This document shows, piece after piece, positions 25,726 to 47,959 of a stretch of 64,000 nt of DNA. The notes under the pieces were generated by a model that ran no database searches, had not been told where the DNA came from, and saw nothing but the letters and a program-made list of their open reading frames with translations. The DNA is taken from NCBI GenBank assembly GCA_000697665.1, contig KL197710.1, forward strand, positions 604,078 to 668,077, read 5' to 3'. The position numbers and the translations under genes are program-made. The stretch comes from Jaapia argillacea MUCL 33604 (Eukaryota > Basidiomycota > Agaricomycetes > Jaapiales > Jaapiaceae). Positions within the stretch are counted from its first letter, which is position 1, and each line of letters begins with the position of its first letter.

Positions 25726-28700
25726 ATGGGTGACAATACCCCAGATTCTGTAACTACTCTTCATGATGACGTGCAAACTTATGGTCTTTCCGATGTTCAT
25801 CACGTTGACGTGTCTGGCGCCGAAGCGGTTTTTGATCAACTCTCTCGTCAGTTAAGTCGAGCTTCTTTTGTTGCCCCAAAGCTAGGGTCGGAGGACGTCG
25901 AGAAGGGTCGTGGGGATGCTGCGTTCGATCTCAGAGAGTACCTCACATCATCGAACGATGCCCATCAGCGTGCTGGGATTAGGCATAAACATGTCGGTAT
26001 AACATGGGAAGACTTGCAGGTGGAGGTCATGGGGGGAATCGACCACAAGGTTAGCATCAGCTTTCTTGTTTTCCCGCGAGACTTCGTTGAAACACGACGC
26101 GATACACAGATCTACGTAGGGACATTTGGCAGTGAGTAGAGTGAGCGATACTACGCAGTTTGACGTGCTAAACCCGTCCGCAGAGGCTATTCTGGATTTC
26201 TTCCTCGGACCCATCTGGTTCTTATGGGGATTGATTGTATCGATGCTCCCCATTCGAAGGCGGGACCTACCCACTCGGACAATCCTTCACAAGTGAGCCC
26301 TCTTCTCAATTCGAAACTCAATTTCCTTTTCAGACTGTTTATAGATCATCTGGAGTATTGAAGCCGCGTGAAATGTGCTTGGTGTTAGGGTGTCCCGGTT
26401 CTGGTTGTACAACGTTCCTTAAGATGATGGCCAATCAAAGAAGTGAGTACGCGAGAGTTTCGGGAGAGGTGCAATATGCTGGCATCGACGCTGTGGAGAT
26501 GGCAAAAATGTATAAAGGAGAAGTGGTATATAATGAAGAAGGTGATTCTTTCCAGATCTCTCATCACACACTTACCCATTTCCTTGAATTAGATGACATC
26601 CACATCTCAACATTGACCGTAGCACAAACTCTTGCGTTCGCACTGGCCACAAAAACTCCTGGTCCGAATGGGCGACTTCCCGGAATTTCGAGAAAGGAAT
26701 TCGATAGAACGGTCATGGACAGTCTTTTGAAAATGCTCAATATCTCTCATACTGCTCAGACTCTGGTGGGCGACGAATTTGTTCGAGGAGTTTCAGGAGG
26801 GGAGCGGAAACGGGTCAGTATCGCGGAAATGATGGCTACCCGTGCACGTGTACAGGCCTGGGACAACAGCACGCGAGGCTTGGATGCTTCTACAGCTCTC
26901 GACTTCGTGAAGAGTCTCAGGATTATGACCGACGTCCTTGGACAAACCACATTCGTGACATTGTGGGTTTACCTTCACGACGAAGTCGTAGTTGAGCATG
27001 CCTGACCTACCTTTGGACAGATATCAAGCCGGAGAGGGCATCTACGAGCTCTTCGATAAAGTCTTGGTGCTCAACGAGGGTCGGCAAGTGTACTTTGGAC
27101 CCCCTTCAGAAGCTAGGGCGTACTTTGAAAACCTTGGCTACAAGTCTCTCCCTCGCCAGAGCACTGCTGACTATCTTACCGGTTGTACCGATCCCAACGA
27201 GCAGCAATTTGAACTCAGTCGCTCTGAACGGGACGTTCCTTCTACCCCTCAAGCTCTGGAGCAAGCGTATCTCTCGTCAAAACATGGTCGAGATATGGAT
27301 GACTCTCTCGCGAAGTACAAGATTCTTATGGAAACTGAGAAGGCTGACCAGGAGGCCTTTCGTGCTGCCGTTGCTGCCGACAAGAAGCGTGGAGTATCGA
27401 AGAAGAGTCCATACACAGTGGGCTTCATGGGTCAAGTTCGGGCACTGTTTTGGCGACGTTTTCAGATGAGGCTGCAAGATAAATTCCAGCTTGTGACCAG
27501 TTTCACTTTGTCATTGGTATGCTCCTGCTCAGAAACTCATGTTTCAACGGCTCACACTGCTCACAAGGTTTTGGCCATTGTTATTGGTGCTGCATTTATC
27601 AATCAACCACCAACGTCCGCTGGAGCTTTCACCCGTGGAAGCGTCATATTTGCGGCCATGCTGACTGCCTGCCTGGAAAACTTTGGGGAGGTCCGTACCT
27701 CCCTCCCTGAATCTCATTCCAAAGACTGATGTCTACGTTTTAGATGCCCATGCAAATGTTAGGTCGCCCCATCCTCAAAAAGCAGGTGGGTAGTCTGGTT
27801 AGTCATGCTAGTTTGAGCGATCCTGAGCATTTCCGCAGACTAGTTACAGTTTGTATCGACCCGCTGCCATTGCAGTTGCCAACACCCTTGCCGATATACC
27901 TTTCTCTGGTATCAGAGTCCTCCTCTACGACATCATCATCTACTTCATGTCAGGCTTAAGCCGAACTGCCGGAGGCTTCTTCACATTCCACCTCTTCAAT
28001 TACCTCGCTTTCCTCGCCATGCAGGGCTTCTTCCGGACATTTGGATTGTTGTGCTCGAACTTCGACAGTGCCTTCCGCTTGGCAGTTTTCTTTGTACCGA
28101 ATATGATCGAGTACGCAGGATACATGATTCCCGTATTCCAGATGAAGCGATGGTTGTTCTGGATCGTAAGTCCCTTATCTCGTTTAGTTCATTTCCTACT
28201 GACGCTTGCTCCGAACAGTACTACATCAATCCGTTATCTTATGGTAAGCCCACTTCCTCCTCGCATCCATACATGCCAGTGTAACCATTGGGCCTTTAGC
28301 ATTCGCCGGTTGCATCGAGAACGAATTCATGCGTATCTCAGTCAGTGGATCCGTCTCGTCTCCTAAACTGGAATTAATAGGTCGTCGATGTCAGTTAACT
28401 TGCGATGGCAACTACATTATTCCTCGAAATCCTCCTGGCGTTACGAAGTACCCGTAAGTCTCATCATTCTCTTCTTTCGCGGCTTTCTGAGACTAGGTCT
28501 TAGAAACGGCCTTGGTGCGAACCAAGTTTGCACCCTGTTTGGTTCAACAGGAGGACGAGATCAAATTCCTGGTCGCTCATACCTTGATATCGGCTACGGA
28601 ATGATGGTCACAGATATCTGGCGACGCAATCTGCTTGTTTTGATTGGTTTCTTAATTTTCTTCCAGGTCACCCAAATCCTCGCTCTGGAATATTGGCCGG

Positions 28701-31567
28701 TGAGTAGTATGTGACCACCGTTAATGAGGATCCTAATTCCCCATCCCAGCAATTGGGAAGTGGCACCGCCATTCGAATCTATGCTAAGGAGGACTCCGAT
28801 ACTGTGAAGCGGAATGAAGCCCTCCGGGAGCGGAAACTGCAGCACTCTGAGAAATCTCAAGCTATGGACCAGAAGCTATACAACCCACGAAGGTTCGTAC
28901 GGGTGCCACTAACTTGAACCAATGCCGCTCAACCATGTACAGCTCGACTTCCGTTGCCCCTCATCGTAGAACATTCACTTGGGAGCGACTAAATTACCAC
29001 GTGCCAGTCGCTGGTGGGACCCGCCGCTTACTCCATGATGTTTACGGCTACGTGAAGCCTGGCACACTGACCGCTCTCATGGGGGCATCAGGAGCAGGTT
29101 CGTGTGATTTCTCCATCTCTAAGTTCGGGGATGTTTACGAGGATCGATCTACTAGGGAAAACCACCTGCTTGGATGTCTTGGCTCAGAGGAAGAATATTG
29201 GCGTCGTCTCTGGAGATGTCCTGGTTGACGGTCGACCCCTGGACTCGGAATTTGCGCGCGGTACCGCCTACGGTGTGTGACCCTTTGGCTATCTCGTCAC
29301 GATTCTTTCGCTCACATTCACTCAGCGGAGCAGCTGGACGTTCACGAGGGAACTGCTACCGTTCGGGAAGCCATGCGTTTCTCTGCATACCTCCGACAGC
29401 CAGCTAGTGTTCCTCGCGAAGAGAAGGACGCCTATGTTGAAGAAATGATTGAATTACTCGAGCTCCAAGATCTCGCCGACGCCCTTGTCTTCAGTCTCAA
29501 CGTCGAAGCGAGAAAGCGCCTGACCATCGGAGTGGAGCTCGCTAGTAAGCCCGAGCTGCTCTTATTCCTGGACGAGCCCACCTCTGGGTTGGACGGTCAG
29601 AGCGCTTGGAACCTAGTACGCTTCTTGCGTCGATTAGCCGAGTCTGGACAAAGCATCCTTTGCACGATCCACCAACCCTCGTCGCTACTCTTCGAAAGCT
29701 TCGATCGTTTGCTTCTCCTAGAATCCGGAGGGGAGACAGTTTACTTCGGTGAAATCGGTCAAGATGCTGCTGTCGTCCGTGACTACTACGCCCGACATGG
29801 TGCAGTTTGTCCTCCCAACGTCAATATGGCTGAATACATGTTGGAGGCTATCGGGGCTGGGGTTACACCTCGCATTGGAGATAGAGATTGGGCCGATATT
29901 TGGAAGGAATCACCCGAGTGCAAGAGAGTCCAGCAAGAGATCGAGGAGATGAAAGGAGAAGCGCTCTCAAAGCCCGCTCCTGACCGTAAGAAGCAGACTA
30001 CATGTGAGTATTCAACCGTTGTCGACGCTTCTGGCTCTCATTATTTGATTACATGTAGATGCGACACCTTTCCTGTATCAACTCCAGGTCGTTGTTAAGC
30101 GTAATTCGATGGCACTGTGGAGATCGCCAGACTATGTTTTCAGCCGTCTCTTTGTGCACGCCTTCATCTCCCTGTTTGTTTCCCTCTCGTTCCTACAGCT
30201 GGGGCATAGTGTTCGCGCTCTCCAATATCGTGTGTTCGCTATGTAAGTCGCTTTCCGACTCGTTTGCCCTGTGGATTCTGATCCTCACTTGTCGTAGCTT
30301 CTGGTGCAGCATCCTTCCTGCGATCGTCATGTCTCAATTGGAACCGATGTTCATATTCAATCGACGTACGTTTACTCACCGTCTCCACTGAATTATCTTC
30401 AATGAGATGTGCGACTTGCAGGGATATTTATCAGGGGTGTGTAACTTCTTAGATACAATGTTGTTACTCTCTCTAACTCGTTGGGCGCAGAGTCATCAAG
30501 CCGGATCTACAGGTGCGTTTCGTGGCGCGCGTCGATCTGTGAAAATGCTGAGTACCTCATAGCCCCTACGTCTTTGCTCTTGGCCAGCTCCTCGGGGAAA
30601 TCCCATACTCGGTGTTGTGTGGCATCGTTTATTGGGCTCTTATGGTCAGTCGAAACACACATATGTTACGCTCGCGGTCTCATACTCGTAACAGGTGTAT
30701 CCCATCGGGTTTGGCCAAGGAGCCGCCGGGATTCCCGGCACTGGCTTCCAGCTCCTCGTCATCATCTTCTTGGAACTCTTCGGCGTGACGCTTGGACAGG
30801 CCATAGGTGCTCTATCGCCGAGTATTCAGGTTGGTTGTGACTCCCCTGCGCTGACATCGGAGTTAATTTGTCACCATAGGTCGCTGTCTTATTCAATCCA
30901 TTCTTGGCTGTCACCCTCGGGACATTTTGCGGAGTCACCATCCCTTATCCCGCGATGGCTAAGTTCTGGAGATCATGGCTCTATCAACTTGATCCCTACA
31001 CCCGAGTGCTGAGCGCGATGCTATCTACTGAATTACAGTACGAAAATTCAACCTAATTAGTCCGGGGCTAACCGTTGCTGACCCATACTATAGCGGGCTC
31101 ACCATTCAGTGCCAGAGCGATGAGTTCGCTGTGTTTAATCCTCCCGTAAGTCAGACGTGTCTGACCTGGGCGAATGAATTCGTTGCCGGCTTTGGAGGAT
31201 ATATCGACAATCCAAATGACACTCAAGCTTGCCGATATTGTCAATACAAGGTGAGTCTTCATCCGACTTAGGACGTGGTAGCTACTGCATGCTGAACGCC
31301 ATCAGGTTGGCGACGAGTTTTTCGTACCACTTAATATCCAGTACAGCAACAGATGGAGAGATGTCTGGATATTGTTCGCTTTCTTCGGTGAGTGTTCTGT
31401 GACCATCCTTGACATTCCAAGACTAGGCTAACGTTCTCCCTATGTTAGTCTTCAATCTCATTGCTACAATCAGTGAGTGTTTCAGTTTCGCATAGATTCC
31501 AAGGACTTGTATCTAATCCAATCTCTTGGCAGTGGCTTCTCGGTTCTTGCGTTACGCTAGGCGTTAA
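25726..31567 (+). CDS. PDR-type full-size ABC transporter, copy 1
   Basis: ABCG full transporter, (NBD-TMD)x2, with about 20 short introns. NBD1 has Walker [13 protein letters not shown], signature [10 protein letters not shown], Walker B replaced by [12 protein letters not shown], and TLYQA at the H-loop. TMD1 includes [20 protein letters not shown] and [21 protein letters not shown]2 has [19 protein letters not shown] split by an intron after GAGAGC-like GASGAG, Walker [19 protein letters not shown], and H-loop TIHQPSS. TMD2 ends [15 protein letters not shown]1 therefore has the degenerate Walker A Cys and Walker B Asn that mark fungal PDR proteins, leaving one canonical composite ATPase site. 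Family members export drugs, sterols or lipids across the plasma membrane. Microexons of about 15 and 22 bp near 30421-30511 encode IFIRE and SSSRIYS. No frame break was found. Confidence 0.92.
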
Positions 31568-31722
31568 CCAGCGGTAGAGTTTGCACGTCAGAGTCACAAG
31601 CATAGACCTACTTATCGACATACCCCCCTGTACGGGGTGCCTTTGATACTATACGAGACTTTATTTTGTCAGCGGCATTGGCAGATGAGAATCACTGACA
31701 CAAGTGCTCTCGTCTGGGAAGG

Positions 31723-31729
31723 GATTACT
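31723..31729 (+). repeat. Target-site duplication, left copy
   Basis: GATTACT directly abuts the left end of the inverted-repeat element. The same heptamer follows the right end at 32527-32533. Confidence 0.7.
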
Positions 31730-32075
31730 CTCAGTAAAAACGAAAAGTCACGGGAAGTCACCCTTAAGTCAGGAGAACGAACATTCACCTATTTTCGTGA
31801 CTAAAATATCGGTGAGATAGTCAACGGAAGTCTCGGAATGTATCCCGATATGGGAAGAAATGATGGCGGAAAAAGAAGAAGACGAGACAAAAAAGGAGGA
31901 GACAAAGAAAAGGATGTTTAAGCCGGGAATCGAACCAAGACAGATAGAACAGCAGCCGAAGCAAATAGCAACAACAGATGCAGCAGACATCAAAGACAGC
32001 TAAGCCACAAAGGCATAGAAAGGGTGGTGATGCGGTAATATATGATGGTGTTGTCCACGGCACCTCGAGGACCCC
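31730..32075 (-). repeat. Left inverted arm
   Basis: Reverse-complement partner of 32182-32526. Its B box reads GGTTCGATTCC on the minus strand (31926-31936) and its A box TGGCTTAGCTGT (31996-32007), so transcription would run outward toward copy 1 of the ABC transporter. Confidence 0.8.
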
Positions 32076-32248
32076 CCCTCCTCCCCTTCCATTCCACGCA
32101 AAAGCCACGAAGGTGCAATTCAAAATGCTGACACCTTCAACCTGGAAATGCAGAATAGAGGAGGGGATGGGGGATGGGGAAAGTCCTAGCGGATGCTGTT
32201 GATAACACCATGATATACTACCACATCACTACCCTTTCTATGCATTTG

Positions 32249-32260
32249 TGGCTTAGCTGT
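32249..32260 (+). promoter_or_regulatory. Pol III A box in right arm
   Basis: TGGCTTAGCTGT matches the tRNA A-box consensus TRGCNNARYNGG at 11 of 12 positions, failing only at the last base. Confidence 0.6.
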
Positions 32261-32319
32261 CTCTGATGTCTGCTGTATCTGTTGTTGCTGTTTGCTTCGG
32301 CTGCTGTTCTATCTGTCTT

Positions 32320-32330
32320 GGTTCGATTCC
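32320..32330 (+). promoter_or_regulatory. Pol III B box in right arm
   Basis: GGTTCGATTCC is a perfect match to the B-box consensus GGTTCGANTCC. It starts 71 bases after the A box starts, more than in a plain tRNA but within the range pol III tolerates. The T-arm around it pairs only partly (about four of five), so this is tRNA-derived rather than a working tRNA. Confidence 0.7.
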
Positions 32331-32526
32331 CGGCTTAACCATCCGTTTCTTTTTCTCCTCCTTTTTTGTCTCGTCTTCTTCTTTTTCAGCCATCATTTCT
32401 TCCCATATCGGGATACATTCCGAGACTTCCGTTGACCATCTCACTGATATTTTAGTCACGAAAATAGGTGAATGTTCGTTCTCCTGACTTAAGGGTGACT
32501 TCCCGTGACTTTTCGTTTTTACTGAG

Positions 32527-33378
32527 GATTACTTGAGAACCGCTTCCTCACGAAAATGGCAACATGGCTATCCCCAAAGAAATTGCTGATATTGGGTGGT
32601 GGGCCGCCGTGGGCATGGGATGACAGCGGTACGTATGGGGTGTCCAAAGGACGGACTTCTTACATGACAACATTAGTCAACGGTCGATGGTGTTGACTCG
32701 CCATTGGATCACGATCACGCTGCTCACAACCGGAAGGGACTGCATGAGTAATTGCAGTTAGATCCTTCGTCTCCAAGTCGCTTCAACCACCGTTTGAAGC
32801 AAGTCCACGCAGTGCTTTGATGACTGGCTCCACCCAGCGCATGCAACATGATGCGTCTTTTGAATACAAATTCTCCGTATTTCGACAGAGGAATCGGGAG
32901 TGAATGTAGTGATTTACGATTAAACAGTGTAAGTAGCTAGTCGTTTTGAATTTAGCAGTGAAGCTGTCCTGTCGAACTTCTTTACTCATTGGTGGCTGTG
33001 TTTTTCTTGGCAGGTTTGCTTCCGGGCCGGTTCTCAACTCAATCTCTTGAGTGGTTGATAGGATCTTGCCTGACAGGTCTCATACCACTCTGCTTGCCAC
33101 TCTGCCTCAGCTCCGACTTCCTCGCAAGACCTGAAGGTCTGATGAATCGCGTCTTGACCCAGTCATGCATTCTGCGCATCCGTATCGCTCCCTGCTTAGT
33201 GTACATTGGTTGCTAAGTTTGACGGTGACTGGTGTCGCGGGGCCGCCACTGCACATGCGAAAGAAGCATCCCTCCAATCCGGCAAAAAAAGATCTAAGTA
33301 TAAATATGCGCTCTACCACATGCGGTTTCTATATTCCTGCGCTATCCAGGGCACTGGGCGACCACACACGACTCCGTG
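32527..33378. other. Spacer upstream of ABC copy 2
   Basis: About 850 bases containing the right target-site copy (32527-32533) and the presumed promoter of the second transporter. No gene is recognisable; the open frames here lack domain content. A-rich sequence (CCGGCAAAAAAAGATCTAAG, about 33280) lies shortly upstream of the start. Confidence 0.4.
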
Positions 33379-36300
33379 ATGACCTCTCATGACGATATCC
33401 CCACATCTAGTCACTTCGATGGTGGCCATGTCGATGTTTCTCGCGCAGAGGTCGCCTTTGATCAGTTATCACGCCAACTTAGTCGACCATCTGTTCCTCA
33501 ACCAAAAACACTTGGTCAAGACGAAGATATCGAGAATGGACCAGCCGACTCCGAGGCGGCATTTGATCTCAAGGAATATCTCTCTTCCTCGAACGATGCC
33601 CACCAGCGTGCAGGGATCCGACACAAGCATGTCGGTGTCATATGGGAGGATCTCCATGTGGATGTAGTCGGAGGGGCGGGCCACAAAGTAAGGTCATTCA
33701 ATTTTCGTCCGTGCGTTGCACCCATTCACTATAATTCATAGATATACGTCGAAACTTTCGAGAGTAGGTGAATTTATGTCAGGCTAGTTCTTACTACTCA
33801 CCCCAAACATTTACAGTGGCCATCCTTAATTTCTTTGCCTCCCCTTTGTCATTCGGGTGGGAGGCTCTGACCTCGGCGTTCCCCATGAGCCAACGCCGAA
33901 AACAAGATTTAGAGCTACGTACAATAATTCAAAGGTTCTTCTCTCTTTATTCAATTGAAATCGTGGATACTCATGATTCTCTCATAGATCTTCAGGCTTC
34001 CTGAAGCCTGGCGAGATGTGCCTGGTTTTGGGCCGCCCTGGATCTGGTTGCACTACCTTCTTGAAGAGTATCGCCAATCGTCGAGGCGAATACGCCAGAG
34101 TTGGCGGTCAAGTCAAATATGCAGGCATTGATGCCACTGAAATGGCCAAAATGTACAAAGGAGAAGTCGTCTACAATGAAGAAGGCAAGTTGGACATCGA
34201 CCCTTCGAATTTCCTTCCCTCCTAACGCCTCCAATATCTTGGTTTAGATGACATCCACATACCAACACTCACGGTTGCACAAACACTTGCCTTCGCGCTA
34301 GCCACCAAGACCCCTGGACCAAACGGACGACTCCCCGGTATCTCGCGCACCGAATTTGATCAAACGGTTATGGATAGCCTCTTGAAGATGCTGAACATCT
34401 CTCATACGTCTCAGACTCTCGTCGGTGATGCGTTTGTGCGAGGCGTATCTGGGGGCGAGCGTAAGCGCGTTAGTATTGCCGAGATGATGGCCACTCGCGC
34501 TCGTGTTCAGACCTGGGATAACAGTACACGAGGTTTGGATGCCTCTACCGCTCTTGACTTCGTTCGTAGTCTGAGAATTATGACGGATGTCCTTGGGCAA
34601 ACCACATTCGTCACATTGTCAGTACACCATGATCTTTGGCTCGTTAACATATGCTTGACTTCGTCTCTTACAGATATCAAGCTGGAGAGAGCATCTATGA
34701 ACTATTTGACAAAGTATTGGTTCTGGACGAAGGCCGACAAGTCTACTTTGGACCTCCTTCATCAGCGAGGGCATATTTCGAACAGTTGGGGTACAAACCT
34801 CTCCCTCGCCAAAGCACCCCCGATTACATCACCGGTTGCACCGATCCAAACGAGCGGCAATTTCAAACTGGACGGTCTGCAAAGGACGTACCCTCTACCC
34901 CTGAGTCTCTGGAAAACGCATACCTATCGTCCCAATTTGGTCGAGACATGTTTGATTCACTTGAAAAATACAAGCTATTGATGGAAACGGAGAAAGCTGA
35001 CCAGGAGGCATTTCGTGCCGCCGTAGCTGCAGACAAGAAACGAGGAGTATCCAAGAAGAGTCCCTATACTGTGGGGTTCATGGGCCAAGTACGGGCGTTA
35101 TTCTGGCGACGTTTCCAGATGAAATTGCAGGATCGATTTCAAATGGTGACGAGCTTTTCTATGTCCCTAGTGCGTTGCTTCTACTGCTAGTATTTATTCT
35201 CGACCGTTGGATACTCAAACAAATGCGCATAGATCCTTGCACTGGTTATTGGGTCCGCATATATTCAACTTCCTCTCACATCGGCTGGCGCATTCACTCG
35301 TGGAAGCGTTTTGTTCGTTGCTATGTTGACTGCTTGCCTAGAAAACTTTGGGGAGGTAGGTCTTAACTCTCTAGCTCAGAGACATCAACTTAACTGCTTC
35401 CCCCCAGATGCCGGCTATGATGTTTGGTCGACCAGTGCTCAAGAAGCAGGTATGACTGATGTTCCCACTCAGACACAACACCTCGGCTGACACTTAGATC
35501 TCGTAGACAGGATACAGCTTTTACCGACCCGCAGCGGTTGCGGTTGCAAACACTCTTGCCGACCTGCCGTTCTCCGCGATTCGAGTGCTCATCTACGATA
35601 TCATCGTCTACTTTATGTCAGGCCTAAACCGGTCAGCAGGAGGGTTCTTCACGTTCCACCTGTTTAATTACCTCACATTCCTGACCATGCAAGGGTTCTT
35701 TCGGACACTCGGTTTATTGAGTTCTACCGTTAGCGGGGCCTTCCGCTGGGCGAATATCTTTGTGCCGAACATGATCGAGTATACTGGGTATATGATTCCA
35801 GTGTTTAACATGAAAAGAGCTCTGTTTTGGATTGTGAGTAAAATATATTGTGTTTGCCGCTGTGAAAGCTGACGTTCTTCAGTACTACATCAATCCGCTG
35901 TCGTACGGTGGGTCTCTCTTCCATCTTAACCATAACCTAGACTAATTGAGCCATGCAGCTTTCGCTGGTTGCATCGAGAATGAGTTTATGCGTATCGTGG
36001 TAATTTGTCGCACTGGTAGCTGAGCCTAAGAGCGCTTCTCTGAAACCCTATTTCACTCTAGCTCACATGTGACGGCAACTACATCGTACCCAGGAATCCT
36101 CCTGGTGTTTCTAAATACCCGTATGCCTCATTTCCCCTCTGATCTATTCGATGTTCAATCTTGGCTCCCCTCTGATTTAGAACTGGTCTTGGCGTCAACC
36201 AGGTCTGCACCCTATTTGGAGCATCAGGAGGCCAAGATTTAATTGCCGGTCGCTCATATCTGGATATCGGCTATGGGATGATTGTCTCTGATATTTGGCG

Positions 36301-39194
36301 CCGTAACCTACTGGTCCTGATCGCTTTCTTGATATTCTTCCAATTTACCCAAATCCTTGCGTTGGAGTTCTTCCCAGTATGTGCAACTTCATTCCCCTTC
36401 GGCTGATTCTCACCCCCCAACTAGCAATACGGGTGGGGAACGTCGACTCGTGTATACGCCAAACCGAATTCCGAAACCGAGCAGCTTAATACGGTACTAA
36501 AAGAAAAGAAAAATCGGACGACTCCACGCAACTCGGATGTGCAAATTTCCGAAAAATTTGCCAACGGACAAAGGTGACCGTTATGCACTTATGAAGTCTA
36601 TTGTGCTGATTACAGTATAGCTCACAACAGACAGCTGGGGGAAGGGTGTTTACGTGGGAGAATCTGAACTACTATGTCCCCGTGGCAGGCGGTACACGCA
36701 GGTTGCTTAACGACGTATCCGGTTATGTCAAACCAGGAACATTGACAGCCCTGATGGGTGCATCGGGTGCAGGTGAGTCTTCCGAATTCCATGTTTGCTC
36801 GATACTGATGGATTATTAGGGAAAACCACTTGTTTGGATGTCCTTGCTCAAAGAAAGAATATCGGAGTTATTTCAGGAGACCTCCTCGTCGATGGACGCC
36901 CCTTAGATGCTGGATTTGCCCGAGGTACTGCCTACGGTAGGTATCCGCTTTGAACAATTGATCCCCTTACTAATCGTAGCGCGAAGCTGAACAAATGGAT
37001 GTTCACGAGGGCACCGCAACGGTGCGAGAAGCCATGCGCTTCTCTGCGTACCTTCGCCAGCCGGCTTCTGTTCCAATCAGTGAGAAGAATGCATACGTGG
37101 AGGAGATGATCGAGCTCCTCGAACTTCAAGATTTGTCGGAGGCCCTCATTTTCAGCCTCGACATGGAGGCTCGCAAACGTTTGACCATCGGGGTCGAACT
37201 TGCTAGCAAACCTGATCTCCTTTTGTTTTTGGATGAACCTACCTCCGGCTTGGATGGCCAAAGTGCATGGAACGTCGTACGTTTCCTGCGCAAACTCGCG
37301 CAGAACGGCCAGTGTATTCTCGTCACGATCCACCAACCCTCGTCTTTGCTATTTGAGAGTTTCGATCGGATTCTCCTCCTCGAAGCTGGTGGCAAGACCG
37401 TGTACTTTGGCGACATTGGTACAGACTCATGTGTCGTCCGGGATTATTTCGGCCGTCATGGAGCTCAATGCCCCCCCAATGTTAACATGGCCGAGTTTAT
37501 GCTGGAGGCCATCGGTGCTGGCGTGACCCCTCGCATTGGAGACCGAGACTGGGGGGATATATGGCGTGACTCGCCTGAGTGTCGGGCAGTCCATGAAGAA
37601 ATCCAAGCCCTTAAATCAGAAGGATTATCACGTCCGGTGGCTGATCATGGAGTGCAAACCACGTGTAAGTTTTCATCGAGCTGATGTGGTTTTCGAATGG
37701 TGTTGACACCCTTGCAGACGCCACCTCGTTTTTGTACCAGCTTCGAATCGTGACGAAACGGAACTTCGTTGCGCTCTGGAGATCTGCCGATTATGTTTTT
37801 AGTCGGTTATTCACTCACGCTTGCATTTCGCTATGGGTTTCCTTGTCATTCCTGCAACTTGGACACACCGTCCGTGATCTTCAGTATCGTGTCTTCGGAA
37901 TGTATGTCCATTTCTTCCAAGCTGCTGGCAATGTCTGACGAATTTTGAATTCAGCTTCTGGTGCTCGATTCTTCCTGTCATCGTTATGAATCAGGTTGAG
38001 CCCATGTTTATATTTAATCGAAGTACGCGTTGTTTCCTCTCTCCTCCCTACAGTCGTTAACCCTTTCACCAGGCATCTTCATTCGAGGTCAGTAATGAAC
38101 TTATCTCGTCGTGTTCGCGATCTGACACTCCTAAACAGAATCGTCCAGTCGTATATACAGGTGTGTTCTTGATCTGATCACGTTCTTCAGCATGTTGGTG
38201 ACGGTATGTTCAGCCCATATGTGTTTGCTATCGGTCAACTGGTTGGCGAGATACCGTACTCGATATTGTGCGGGATCGTGTACTGGGCACTCATGGTAAG
38301 TTCACCAACATATGTGACTCCCCCGAGAACTGACATCCGCCAAGGTATACCCAATGGGATACGGCCAAGGAGCAGCAGGTCTTCCGGGAACTGGCTTTCA
38401 ACTACTCCTCATTGTCTTTCTTGAATTGTTCGGTGTCTCATTAGGGCAACTTATCGGAGCGTTGTCACCCAGCATTCAGGTACGCGTCGTTCACACTCCA
38501 TGAGAGCAACGAGAAGTAATGTATTACCCAGGTGGCCGTGCTATTCAATCCCTTCATTGCCGTGACCCTAAGTACCTTCTGTGGAGTAACAATCCCATAT
38601 CCAACTATGGCCAAATTCTGGAAGGATTGGCTGTACCAGCTTGATCCTTACACGCACATGTTGAGTGCAATGCTATCAACTGAGCTTCAGTGAGGACTTT
38701 CCTTCACCTGTCCATTGTGCTCGTTAATGACCTGGTAACAGCGGCCTGTCAATACAGTGCCAGAGCGATGAGTTCTCTGTCTTCAACCCCCCATCAGGCC
38801 AGACCTGCCAGACGTGGGCAAGCGACTTTGTTGCTGGCTTTGGGGGATATCTAGACAATCCCAATGACACTGAAGGTTGTCGATACTGTCAATATAAGGT
38901 CTGTTTTCAGTCACTTACCCAAGAATTACGAACAATTCTGACTGCCCGTAGGTTGGCGATGAATTTTTCCTGCCCTTGAATATCCGTTACTCTGATCGAT
39001 GGTGGAACGCTTCACTTCTGCTCGCATTCTTCGGTTCGTGCTCATGCGATTCCATTGACCCATTCGCTTACCGTTGGAATAGCTTTCAATGTTGTCGCAA
39101 CGATTCGTGAGTGGCATTTTCGTCCTTTCAAAAATGACGCGAATTCATATGGCGGACAGTTGCTTCACGTTACCTTCGTTTCGCCCGGCGATGA
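33379..39194 (+). CDS. PDR-type full-size ABC transporter, copy 2
   Basis: Tandem paralogue of copy 1, same strand, with the same exon layout. The start ATG at 33379 gives [23 protein letters not shown]1 Walker A is [12 protein letters not shown] (the usual fungal Arg where copy 1 has Cys), followed by [10 protein letters not shown], then [15 protein letters not shown]1 keeps [20 protein letters not shown] and [19 protein letters not shown]2 has [37 protein letters not shown] and TIHQPSS. The final exons encode [11 protein letters not shown], with TGA at 39192-39194. Silent positions differ widely from copy 1 while protein blocks are nearly identical, so the duplication is old and both copies look functional. 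Divergence is largest in the N-terminal leader, the linker before NBD2 (about 36430-36650) and the introns, which could reflect different substrates or regulation. Confidence 0.92.
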
Positions 39195-46428: not shown

Positions 46429-47959
46429 CTAGGAGGTCCGTTTGACAACTTTCTCAGTCAGAACTTCCAGTGCGGTTTTTGCGTCGCTGTCGGGCAGCAG
46501 TTTCAGCACGTCCCTGGCGCCGTCTGCATGTGCTTGAGCAAGCTCCCGAGTGCGTTCGACTCCCGAAGATCTTCGAACGAGGTCTCGTGCCTAATATTGT
46601 TTGAGGAATCTATAAATGGACGAATAAATTGATTCAATCTCACCAGTTCCACATCACCCTCCTTCTCAAACTTGCGTTCTACCAGAGGGCCCATCTCCGG
46701 ATGCTCTTCCCAGGCATAAAGAGCAGGACCCGTCGCCAGTCCGAGCTGCAAATCTGCTCCTCCCGGCTTGCCCATCGCAGCCTCTCCGGATTCATAGTCG
46801 AGGACGTCATCAACGAGCTAGAACTCGAAGTTAGCACTCTGCAGATTTGGAAGAGGGATATTATAAACGAAGGTACCTGGAAGGCAATGCCGAGATTGCG
46901 ACCGTACGCATAGGCAACTTCTTTCCATATCTCACCCTCCCTGCATCCCCCAAGCACAACGGCAGCCCTTGTACCCTTCGCCATCAAACTCGCCGTCTTG
47001 AGGTACGATCGTTTGAGGTAGATATTCCAATTCTCCTGGCCTACCCGAGGTGAAGGTCCACCGACCAAACCCAGTTCCTCCCCATGTACATCCTTCATCT
47101 GAAGAATTTCACCCTCTACGAGATTGGCTATCACACTAGAGATGAGCTCGACCACTTCGCTGTCTCCAAGACGGGAAAGAGCAGCACTAGCTCGGCCTAG
47201 GAGGAAGTCTCCTGCAAGGACGGAGAGCTTGTTGCCGAATGCTGCTGGTGCTGAAGGTGCTCCGCGGCGAAGTGGTGAATTATCAATCACGTCGTCATGT
47301 AGGAGGGAGGCGACATGGATCATCTCTACTATCTGGGCGAGGCGTAATTGTGCCGGGAGAAGAAGGGAGGGCGAGGAGTGCGATGAAGGTGAGAATTCTG
47401 AGAAAGATGGAGGTTGTGGGGGCTGTCGGGGTAGAGAGGGAGGCGGGATGGAGAACACTGAGGAGAAGGATGCCGTGTGGTCTGGCATGTTAGGGTTCCA
47501 ATCGTTTAACACGTCCGGACGCGACAGTGGTCGGTCCAATTCCTCAGCTCTACCACCTGCTCCTTCACAGTCCGCAGCCCATCTTTTCAAGTCCCATTTC
47601 CCACCCAGACCATTCGTGGCACATGAGAAGAGCAAGACAAGAAGGGGTCTGACTTGTTTTGAAGGGTGAAGGAAGTAATATTCCGCAATGTCAGTTAGAC
47701 CGGGATGTGATGACCCCAGGAGGTTCAGCAATGTCTTGCGCAGGTGTGCAATCTGAGGGGCAAGGAGAGAGAAGGGATCAGGGCGAGGGGAAAGCGGAGA
47801 GAGGTTGTCTTGTGGGCGAGGTTGTTTCTCTGTGCGGGGATGGACCTGCTGCTGGGCAAGTTGTGCGACATAGCGCGGTCGCGTCGGTGATGTCAGTCGC
47901 GTGACGATGATCGAGGACCTTTTGAGAACGGGCCGAGTAGACCCAAGCCATTGTCGCAT
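46429..47959 (-). CDS. COQ1: Mitochondrial trans-polyprenyl diphosphate synthase (COQ1 type)
   Basis: The start at 47959 gives an Arg/Ser-rich mitochondrial presequence, MRQWLGSTRPVLKRSSIIVT. Class-E prenyltransferase blocks follow: YYFLHPSKQVRPLLVLLFS, the first Asp-rich motif SLLHDDVIDNSPLRRG, AGDFLLGRASAALSRLGD, EGEILQMKDVHG and YLKRSYLKTASLMAKG. After an intron come the second Asp motif QLVDDVLDYESGEAAMG and KPGGADLQLGLATGPALYA. It ends with VLKLLPDSDAKTALEVLTEK. These two DDxxD-type motifs bind the Mg-diphosphates. The product is the long isoprenoid tail of ubiquinone; the tail length (probably 9-10 units in basidiomycetes) cannot be read from the sequence. A Pro/Ser-rich insert (about 47360-47500) lies before the first Asp motif. 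Confidence 0.92.

Follow-up and report, generated by a model that had tools for sequence, protein, structure and literature searches.

A foldback element family of Jaapia argillacea with predicted type-2 Pol III promoters, one reading outward in each inverted arm

The locus described here raises the question of why an element made of two mirror-image arms would carry, in each arm, the outward-reading boxes of a tRNA-type RNA polymerase III (Pol III) promoter, and by which route such an element would spread. It lies in the window, by which we mean the whole stretch of 64,000 nucleotides that was analysed, part of contig C2 in a genome of 43.7 Mb and 95 contigs.

The element in the window

The complete foldback element and its flanking duplications are located in Table 1. 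An inverted-repeat search returned arms of 333 nt each that were 95% complementary; compared over 345 positions, the arms differed by 26 mismatches, 17 of these in the first 333, and the outermost 81 nt were the same in both. These results bear out the original prediction of an inverted repeat with arms about 95% alike, perfect outer termini and a 7-bp flanking duplication. Long inverted repeats extended to the exact ends in this and the other complete copies; at C50 the BLAST inverted match ended 12 nt before the left end, though the left end itself was present.

An A box and a perfect B box reading outward had also been claimed for each arm, and both were found. The B box GGTTCGATTCC was exact in both arms and the A box TGGCTTAGCTG, 71 nt upstream, matched TRGYNNARNNG, which, like the B-box pattern used, we take to be the consensus. 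The first run of at least four T residues began 14 nt (left arm) or 19 nt (right arm) past the B box. Among 2000 dinucleotide shuffles of the right arm, one equalled the B box and none equalled the set of A box, B box and T-run, while the inward strand offered no B-box match with fewer than four mismatches. No tRNA was reported in the window by ARAGORN at default settings, nor at 31600-32650 by Rfam cmscan up to E=10.

Other features of the window were noted in passing. The right arm contains an open frame of 90 codons in which a GIEP stretch corresponds to the B box on the opposite strand. On either side of the element is a set of ABC-transporter coding pieces; the two sets resemble each other in translation and are probably tandem duplicates. 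Their PDR-like appearance, the reading frames interrupted as though by introns and the size of the genome are in keeping with a fungal source. Further along is a reading frame for a polyprenyl synthetase (Pfam PF00348, E 1.7e-41).

Table 1. Positions of features in the window and on other contigs
Feature	Position	Strand	Remarks
Foldback element, complete	31730..32526		797 bp; self-complementary along full length, 88% with gaps
Left target-site duplication GATTACT	31723..31729		7 bp; fits NNTNANN
Right target-site duplication GATTACT	32527..32533		7 bp
Left arm	31730..32062	-	ends CTCAGTAAAAACGAAAAGTCA; subterminal AAGTCA motifs
Right arm	32194..32526	+	mirrors left arm; 95% complementary
Centre between ungapped arms	32063..32193		131 nt
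Left-arm A box TGGCTTAGCTG	31997..32007	-	reads outward
Left-arm B box GGTTCGATTCC	31926..31936	-	71 nt after A box
Left-arm first T-run (TTTT on minus strand)	31908..31911	-	candidate Pol III terminator
Right-arm A box TGGCTTAGCTG	32249..32259	+	reads outward
Right-arm B box GGTTCGATTCC	32320..32330	+	71 nt after A box
Right-arm first T-run (TTTTT)	32350..32354	+	candidate Pol III terminator
ABC-transporter coding pieces, two sets	26.2-30.1 kb and 34.2-37.7 kb		probable tandem duplicates, 26235-37681
Polyprenyl synthetase reading frame	46679-47956	-
C39 copy, four collinear pieces	C39: 34351-34387, 52978-53200, 53887-53925, 79073-79587
C39 nested repeat block	C39:34351-79587
Small foldback of another kind	about 160-587 of C8:1471000-1471900		just past the A box of the C8 copy
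C83 hairpin	about 453-517 of fetched C83 piece L055		B-box-like sequence on inward strand

Copies, ends and insertion sites

At least 14 insertions with the end CTCAGTAAAAAYR were noted in the genome, that at C47 with one mismatch. Genome-wide, the 21-nt end at up to three mismatches matched 15 termini as opposed to three for the reversed control, and an 18-nt end pattern combined with a TNA flank matched 32 places at up to one mismatch (22 of them exactly) as opposed to seven at up to one mismatch for the control. Although the TNA motif formed part of some search patterns, all of the 14 insertions compared below except C18 were found without it. This set leaves out the exact terminal matches at C9:1311439 and C29:266220, as well as one-mismatch matches other than C18 and C47; the C9 match showed no inverted repeat and no similarity to the five elements compared.

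Seven unbroken complete elements of about 0.8 kb each were identified (C1, 843 bp; C2, 797 bp; C3, 785 bp; C18, 777 bp; C35, 774 bp; C40, 814 bp; C50, 783 bp). A search with the whole window element returned one near copy, on contig C39, with outer flanks AATTATA and AATTATT and in four pieces; we take these for the parts of a single element into which three insertions went later. Later insertion has also split the C37 copy, by about 11 kb, the C8 copy is interrupted and has lost its B box, and at C10 two arm-like pieces adjoin a gap. The element is therefore not single copy in its own genome, given the near copy on C39 and the further copies recovered by their ends, and the prediction of a multi-copy mobile foldback family is upheld by shared termini and 7-bp duplications. 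In what follows, E3 is C3, E4 is C1, E5 is C40, E6 is C50, E7 is C37, E12 is C35 and E15 is C18. Searches with the end sequence, in which the boxes played no part, yielded E3 to E7 and E15, whereas E12, C10 and C8 were recovered by BLAST with E4, E3 and E5, queries that included the box region.

Every flank that was read fitted NNTNANN in 13 of 14 insertions (21 of 22 flanks); in these, the third of the 7 bp adjoining the end was T and the fifth was A. The exception was C18, where the left flank fits and the right flank does so only when two more bases are assigned to the element. Exact matches between the 7-bp flanks were noted in six complete copies (C1, C2, C3, C35, C40 and C50); the C39 duplication matched at six of seven positions and that of C18 was exact only with two extra bases allowed. 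A DDE transposase is known to leave this footprint: inverted ends, duplications of one length and a target whose core is symmetric. By their fixed length, the 7-bp duplications point to transposition by a transposase of the DDE type as opposed to SINE retroposition.

The same observations bear on the head-to-head SINE dimer put forward with the original prediction, here taken as one spread by LINE machinery. The tRNA-type promoter boxes, together with an A-to-B spacing within the range of intron-bearing tRNA genes, would suit such a dimer, but fixed 7-bp duplications with a TNA core, conserved inverted ends and predicted transcripts that terminate within the arm would not. Moreover, a single arm standing free was recognised at none of the places examined, the pair of pieces at C10 and the lone ends at C28, C43, C83 and C47 being set aside here. 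We consider this idea extremely improbable and do not retain it.

A search for an autonomous partner at the C43 and C47 ends found no transposase. Next to the C43 end lie at least 10 kb of N, the C28 and C83 ends run off their contigs, and the 4 kb to the left of C47 contain one short-end match with two mismatches, inside a reading frame and without the flank. The ends at C28, C43, C83 and C47 have little in common beyond the terminus and AGTC motifs. Those at C28:1-451 and C43:188271-188699, which are 99% identical to each other, carry the family terminus and the AGTC motifs with no boxes in place, and this end type may belong to longer partner elements, perhaps autonomous ones.

Two neighbouring repeats were recorded during this work. 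In the nested repeat block on C39, the copy holds an 18.6-kb insertion with CACCAC..GTGGTG borders, a solo-LTR-like TG..CA unit of about 685 bp with an apparent GCAGA duplication, and an insertion of about 25 kb with inverted AATGTACAACCGAC common to its borders; of the first 100,000 bases of this contig, 46,574 are N. The small foldback beside the C8 copy is of a different kind, with CAGCTGGTTGCAAAACAGTAG.. ends and an apparent TA or TTA duplication.

Promoter boxes in divergent arms

An A box, a B box and a T-run were present at the corresponding place in E3, E4, E5, E6, E7 and E15, with zero to three mismatches per box except in the right arm of E7, where the B box is disrupted. The A boxes were TGGTGTAGTAG in C3, TGGCTCAGTGG in C1 and TGGCTCAGGTG in C40, C37 and C50, with TGGCTCAGATG in one C50 arm. 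At the aligned position C18 and C35 had TTGCGTAGTGG or TTGCTCAGTGG, one off the consensus, and for E15 two A-box picks scored equally, one 79 nt before the B box and the other 71 nt before it at the aligned position. The B box was perfect in both arms of C2 and C18 and in the right arm of C35, and differed by one mismatch in both arms of C1, the right arms of C3 and C39, the left arm of C35 and C10a. Two or three mismatches were seen in the left arms of C3 and C37, in C40, C50 and C10b; within the E5/E6/E7 group this applied to five of six arms, the sixth being the disrupted right arm of C37. Across arms the A-to-B spacing was about 56-75 nt, the B box lay about 200 nt inside each element end and the T-run followed it by 12-29 nt (12-14 nt in 15 of 18 arms). 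Thus tRNA-like boxes, predicted for one element, are a family feature insofar as type-2 Pol III boxes can be read from sequence, and they are kept in divergent subfamilies.

A perfect B box is by itself weak evidence because the exact consensus GGTTCGANTCC had 176 matches in the genome as opposed to 97 for the reversed control pattern. These control matches, the low complexity around the boxes and the T-runs common there would be expected if the boxes were an artefact of chance or of the composition of T-rich, CAG-rich arms. Shuffles that kept dinucleotide content (2000 per arm) nevertheless rarely matched the joint set of A box, B box and T-run, which was reached by none in E1, E3, E4, E12, E15 and C10a, by one in E7_L and by 14 in E5; for the B box alone, the corresponding figures in E7_L and E5 were 278 and 1516. 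Inward strands of the tested arms had at least three B-box mismatches at best. Given also that the boxes recur in subfamilies recovered by ends only, an origin by chance appears very improbable.

Identity between arms of different elements was low, at about 47-55% for E3 versus the rest and for E4/E12/E15 versus E1/E2/E5/E6/E7, 63-66% for E4 versus E12/E15 and 61-67% for E1/E2 versus E5/E6/E7. In contrast, the two arms of one element were 90-96% alike. Since left-right identity mostly equalled or exceeded copy-to-copy identity, the sequences suggest that the arms of one element have been homogenised or rebuilt together; the exception was the E7 right arm, which is nearer to that of E5 (93-94%) than to its own left arm (90%).

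Conservation scored in 11-nt blocks over arms of five subfamilies (E1, E3, E4, E5 and E15) was highest at the end (1.0), followed by the B box (0.84), the A-box edge (0.80; the first three letters of the A box with the 8 nt that precede them), a GTTGAC block in subterminal position (0.78) and the T-run (0.73). Outside the boxes and terminal 35 nt, the blocks scored 0.44 on average. The B-box window scored above all 248 outside windows, whereas the strict 11-nt A-box window (0.68) was equalled by 12 of them.

These scores bear on whether the family is an ordinary MITE or foldback family in which the A and B boxes are the passive relic of a single tRNA or SINE capture, with no present function. 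Decay of the boxes is indeed seen in E5/E6 and the C39 copy, often by C to T at the CpG of the box, and some relatives share the end yet have no boxes at this place. A relic would be expected to drift together with its surroundings, and the relic reading is disfavoured for this reason, since in arms only about 50% identical the B box, A-box edge and T-run still rank with the best conserved internal blocks and the T-run stays 12-14 nt past the B box in most arms. We therefore regard a relic as unlikely, though clearly less so than chance.

The relatives without boxes at the expected place share the terminus and fall into three types of end (C28/C43, C83 and C47). At C47 an A-plus-B pair with three mismatches, equal to the E5 score, was noted inside a subterminal motif by the end, and at C83 a B box with one mismatch on the inward strand. 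The latter region contains a hairpin, GGAAGTGCAAG..CTTGCACTTCC with the B-box-like CGTTCGATTCC, about 86 nt from the family terminus, which is not a tRNA according to Rfam. As to the decay of the boxes, C-to-T change at the B-box CpG was frequent among arms (L025, L029, L040, L063 and L065 among them), and because many B boxes differ in this way, past cytosine methylation of the family is suggested.

For comparison, 20 of the 60 tRNA matches in the genome were fetched. In these same-genome tRNA genes the A-to-B distance was 42-73 nt (one pick of 21 being a mis-assigned box), with 57-73 nt in the five of 20 that ARAGORN read with introns, and a T-run was found 12-36 nt past the B box in 18 of 20, the mis-assigned one left out. 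As the spacings overlap, the arms match tRNA genes with introns in their geometry. Nevertheless, covariance models gave no Rfam tRNA hit in family arms up to E=10, and no fold common to six predicted transcripts was found (RNAalifold -0.4 kcal/mol); what points to a tRNA origin is thus the boxes by themselves. A real or pseudo tRNA gene was rejected on the absence of a covariance-model hit, ARAGORN having reported candidates only at lowered thresholds with introns of 70-164 nt. Rfam matches to microRNAs and other families were likewise set aside as all fell under curated thresholds, those to microRNAs following the near-perfect hairpin. With no tRNA, no common fold and no transposase found, it looks as though the promoter, rather than an RNA shape, is under selection.

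Predicted Pol III activity and relation to known elements

In our judgment the family is likely to consist of non-autonomous foldback DNA transposons that keep two divergent, predicted type-2 Pol III promoters. A transposase acting in trans would recognise the end of about 20 bp, CTCAGTAAAAAYRAWAAGTC, and perhaps the subterminal AGTC motifs, and would insert the element at NNTNANN with the observed 7-bp duplication. Each arm would carry an outward promoter composed of an A box, a B box about 56-75 nt further on and a T-run, and selection may have kept this promoter while the remaining arm drifted. Most likely, either TFIIIC and Pol III would bind both arms and give rise to two divergent RNAs of about 100-125 nt, a predicted length counted from 10 nt upstream of the A box to the first T-run, or TFIIIC binding alone would keep the element open, insulated and accessible to transposase.

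Because the predicted transcripts end inside the arm, they would provide no full-length template for copying, which sets the family apart from SINEs, Helenus and Cassandra. For the same reason, RNA-templated movement appears to us less probable than an effect of bound TFIIIC, or of Pol III acting locally, by which the element may be kept open or insulated; tRNA genes are known to keep chromatin open or to insulate. More broadly, and with somewhat less than even confidence, we propose a class of TIR DNA transposons that use the Pol III machinery without an RNA template, in which paired outward promoters would recruit TFIIIC and the arms would stay open or insulated for the transposase.

The original prediction had also considered a hairpin RNA, and read-through of the whole unit could indeed yield a long double strand feeding RNA interference. 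This is compatible with the promoter reading, and the self-complementarity of the element is near-complete; such potential is, however, common to any foldback, no comparable boxes occur on the inward strand and each predicted Pol III unit reaches a T-run before the outer arm. T-runs so close to the B box argue against routine Pol III read-through, and a hairpin source appears improbable as the explanation of the family.

Returning to the promoter reading, the family can be set beside known foldback elements. FB, Galileo and MITEs are non-autonomous, with long inverted arms and a short non-coding centre, and the present family resembles them in long inverted arms, short centre and non-autonomy; to our knowledge, descriptions of those elements include no Pol III promoters in the arms. 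Among fungal DNA transposons, 7-bp target-site duplications are described for hAT7 and Kyakuja, the latter having 5'-CA..TG-3' ends and no TIR (PMC12730594). The family has its duplication length in common with hAT7 and differs from Kyakuja (KDZ) in its CTCAGT..ACTGAG ends and long TIR; no transposase could be assigned to these ends.

SINEs have an internal tRNA-type promoter at one end of the retroposon. The family shares A and B boxes with tRNA-derived SINEs, which have duplications of variable length, a 3' tail and a promoter at the 5' end of the unit; it departs from them in its fixed 7-bp duplications, its inverted ends and a B box about 200 nt inside each end. AfuSINE2, a tRNA-derived fungal SINE, has duplications of 4-14 bp (PMC5063351). 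It too is a tRNA-related element of a fungal genome, in contrast with which the foldback family has a fixed 7-bp duplication with a motif, inverted ends and two promoters.

Closest in promoter placement are two elements with terminal repeats, Helenus and Cassandra. Helenus (TRIMp3), a short non-coding mobile element with fungi among its hosts, carries a Pol III promoter of the tRNA type in each terminal repeat; its A and B boxes were marked by the author, and a functional tRNA is unlikely. Its LTRs are direct, its duplications measure 4-5 bp, a primer-binding site and a polypurine tract are present, and copying proceeds through RNA (PMC10886601). The foldback family is similar in the tRNA-like Pol III promoter of its terminal repeats, predicted here from the boxes. 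It differs in having inverted repeats, which take up the whole element, a 7-bp duplication and a predicted transcript shorter than the element. Cassandra, with a Pol III promoter in its TRIM LTRs (PMC10886601), is alike in promoter location and differs in its 5S type, direct repeats and LTR retrotransposition. By analogy, we read the foldback family as an inverted-repeat counterpart of Cassandra and Helenus. In the literature searched, which lay outside most subscription papers and Repbase, no precedent was found for a DNA element whose inverted arms have conserved A and B boxes, which argues only weakly that none exists. The pairing of mobile DNA with tRNA-style promoters is known from RNA-copying elements, and for outward promoters in mirror-image DNA elements we have found no printed precedent.

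The usual explanation for a Pol III promoter in a mobile element is that an RNA template is needed. In this family, the boxes occur in an element that appears to move as DNA, to judge from its ends and duplications, and they outlast most of the arm. If the proposal is true, retrotransposition cannot be the reason for Pol III promoters in this family, which would represent a third union of mobile DNA with such promoters beside SINEs (non-LTR) and TRIMp3 (LTR). The family allows a direct test of whether TFIIIC or Pol III binding itself aids a transposon, and adds a source of predicted tRNA-like promoters dispersed over a genome.
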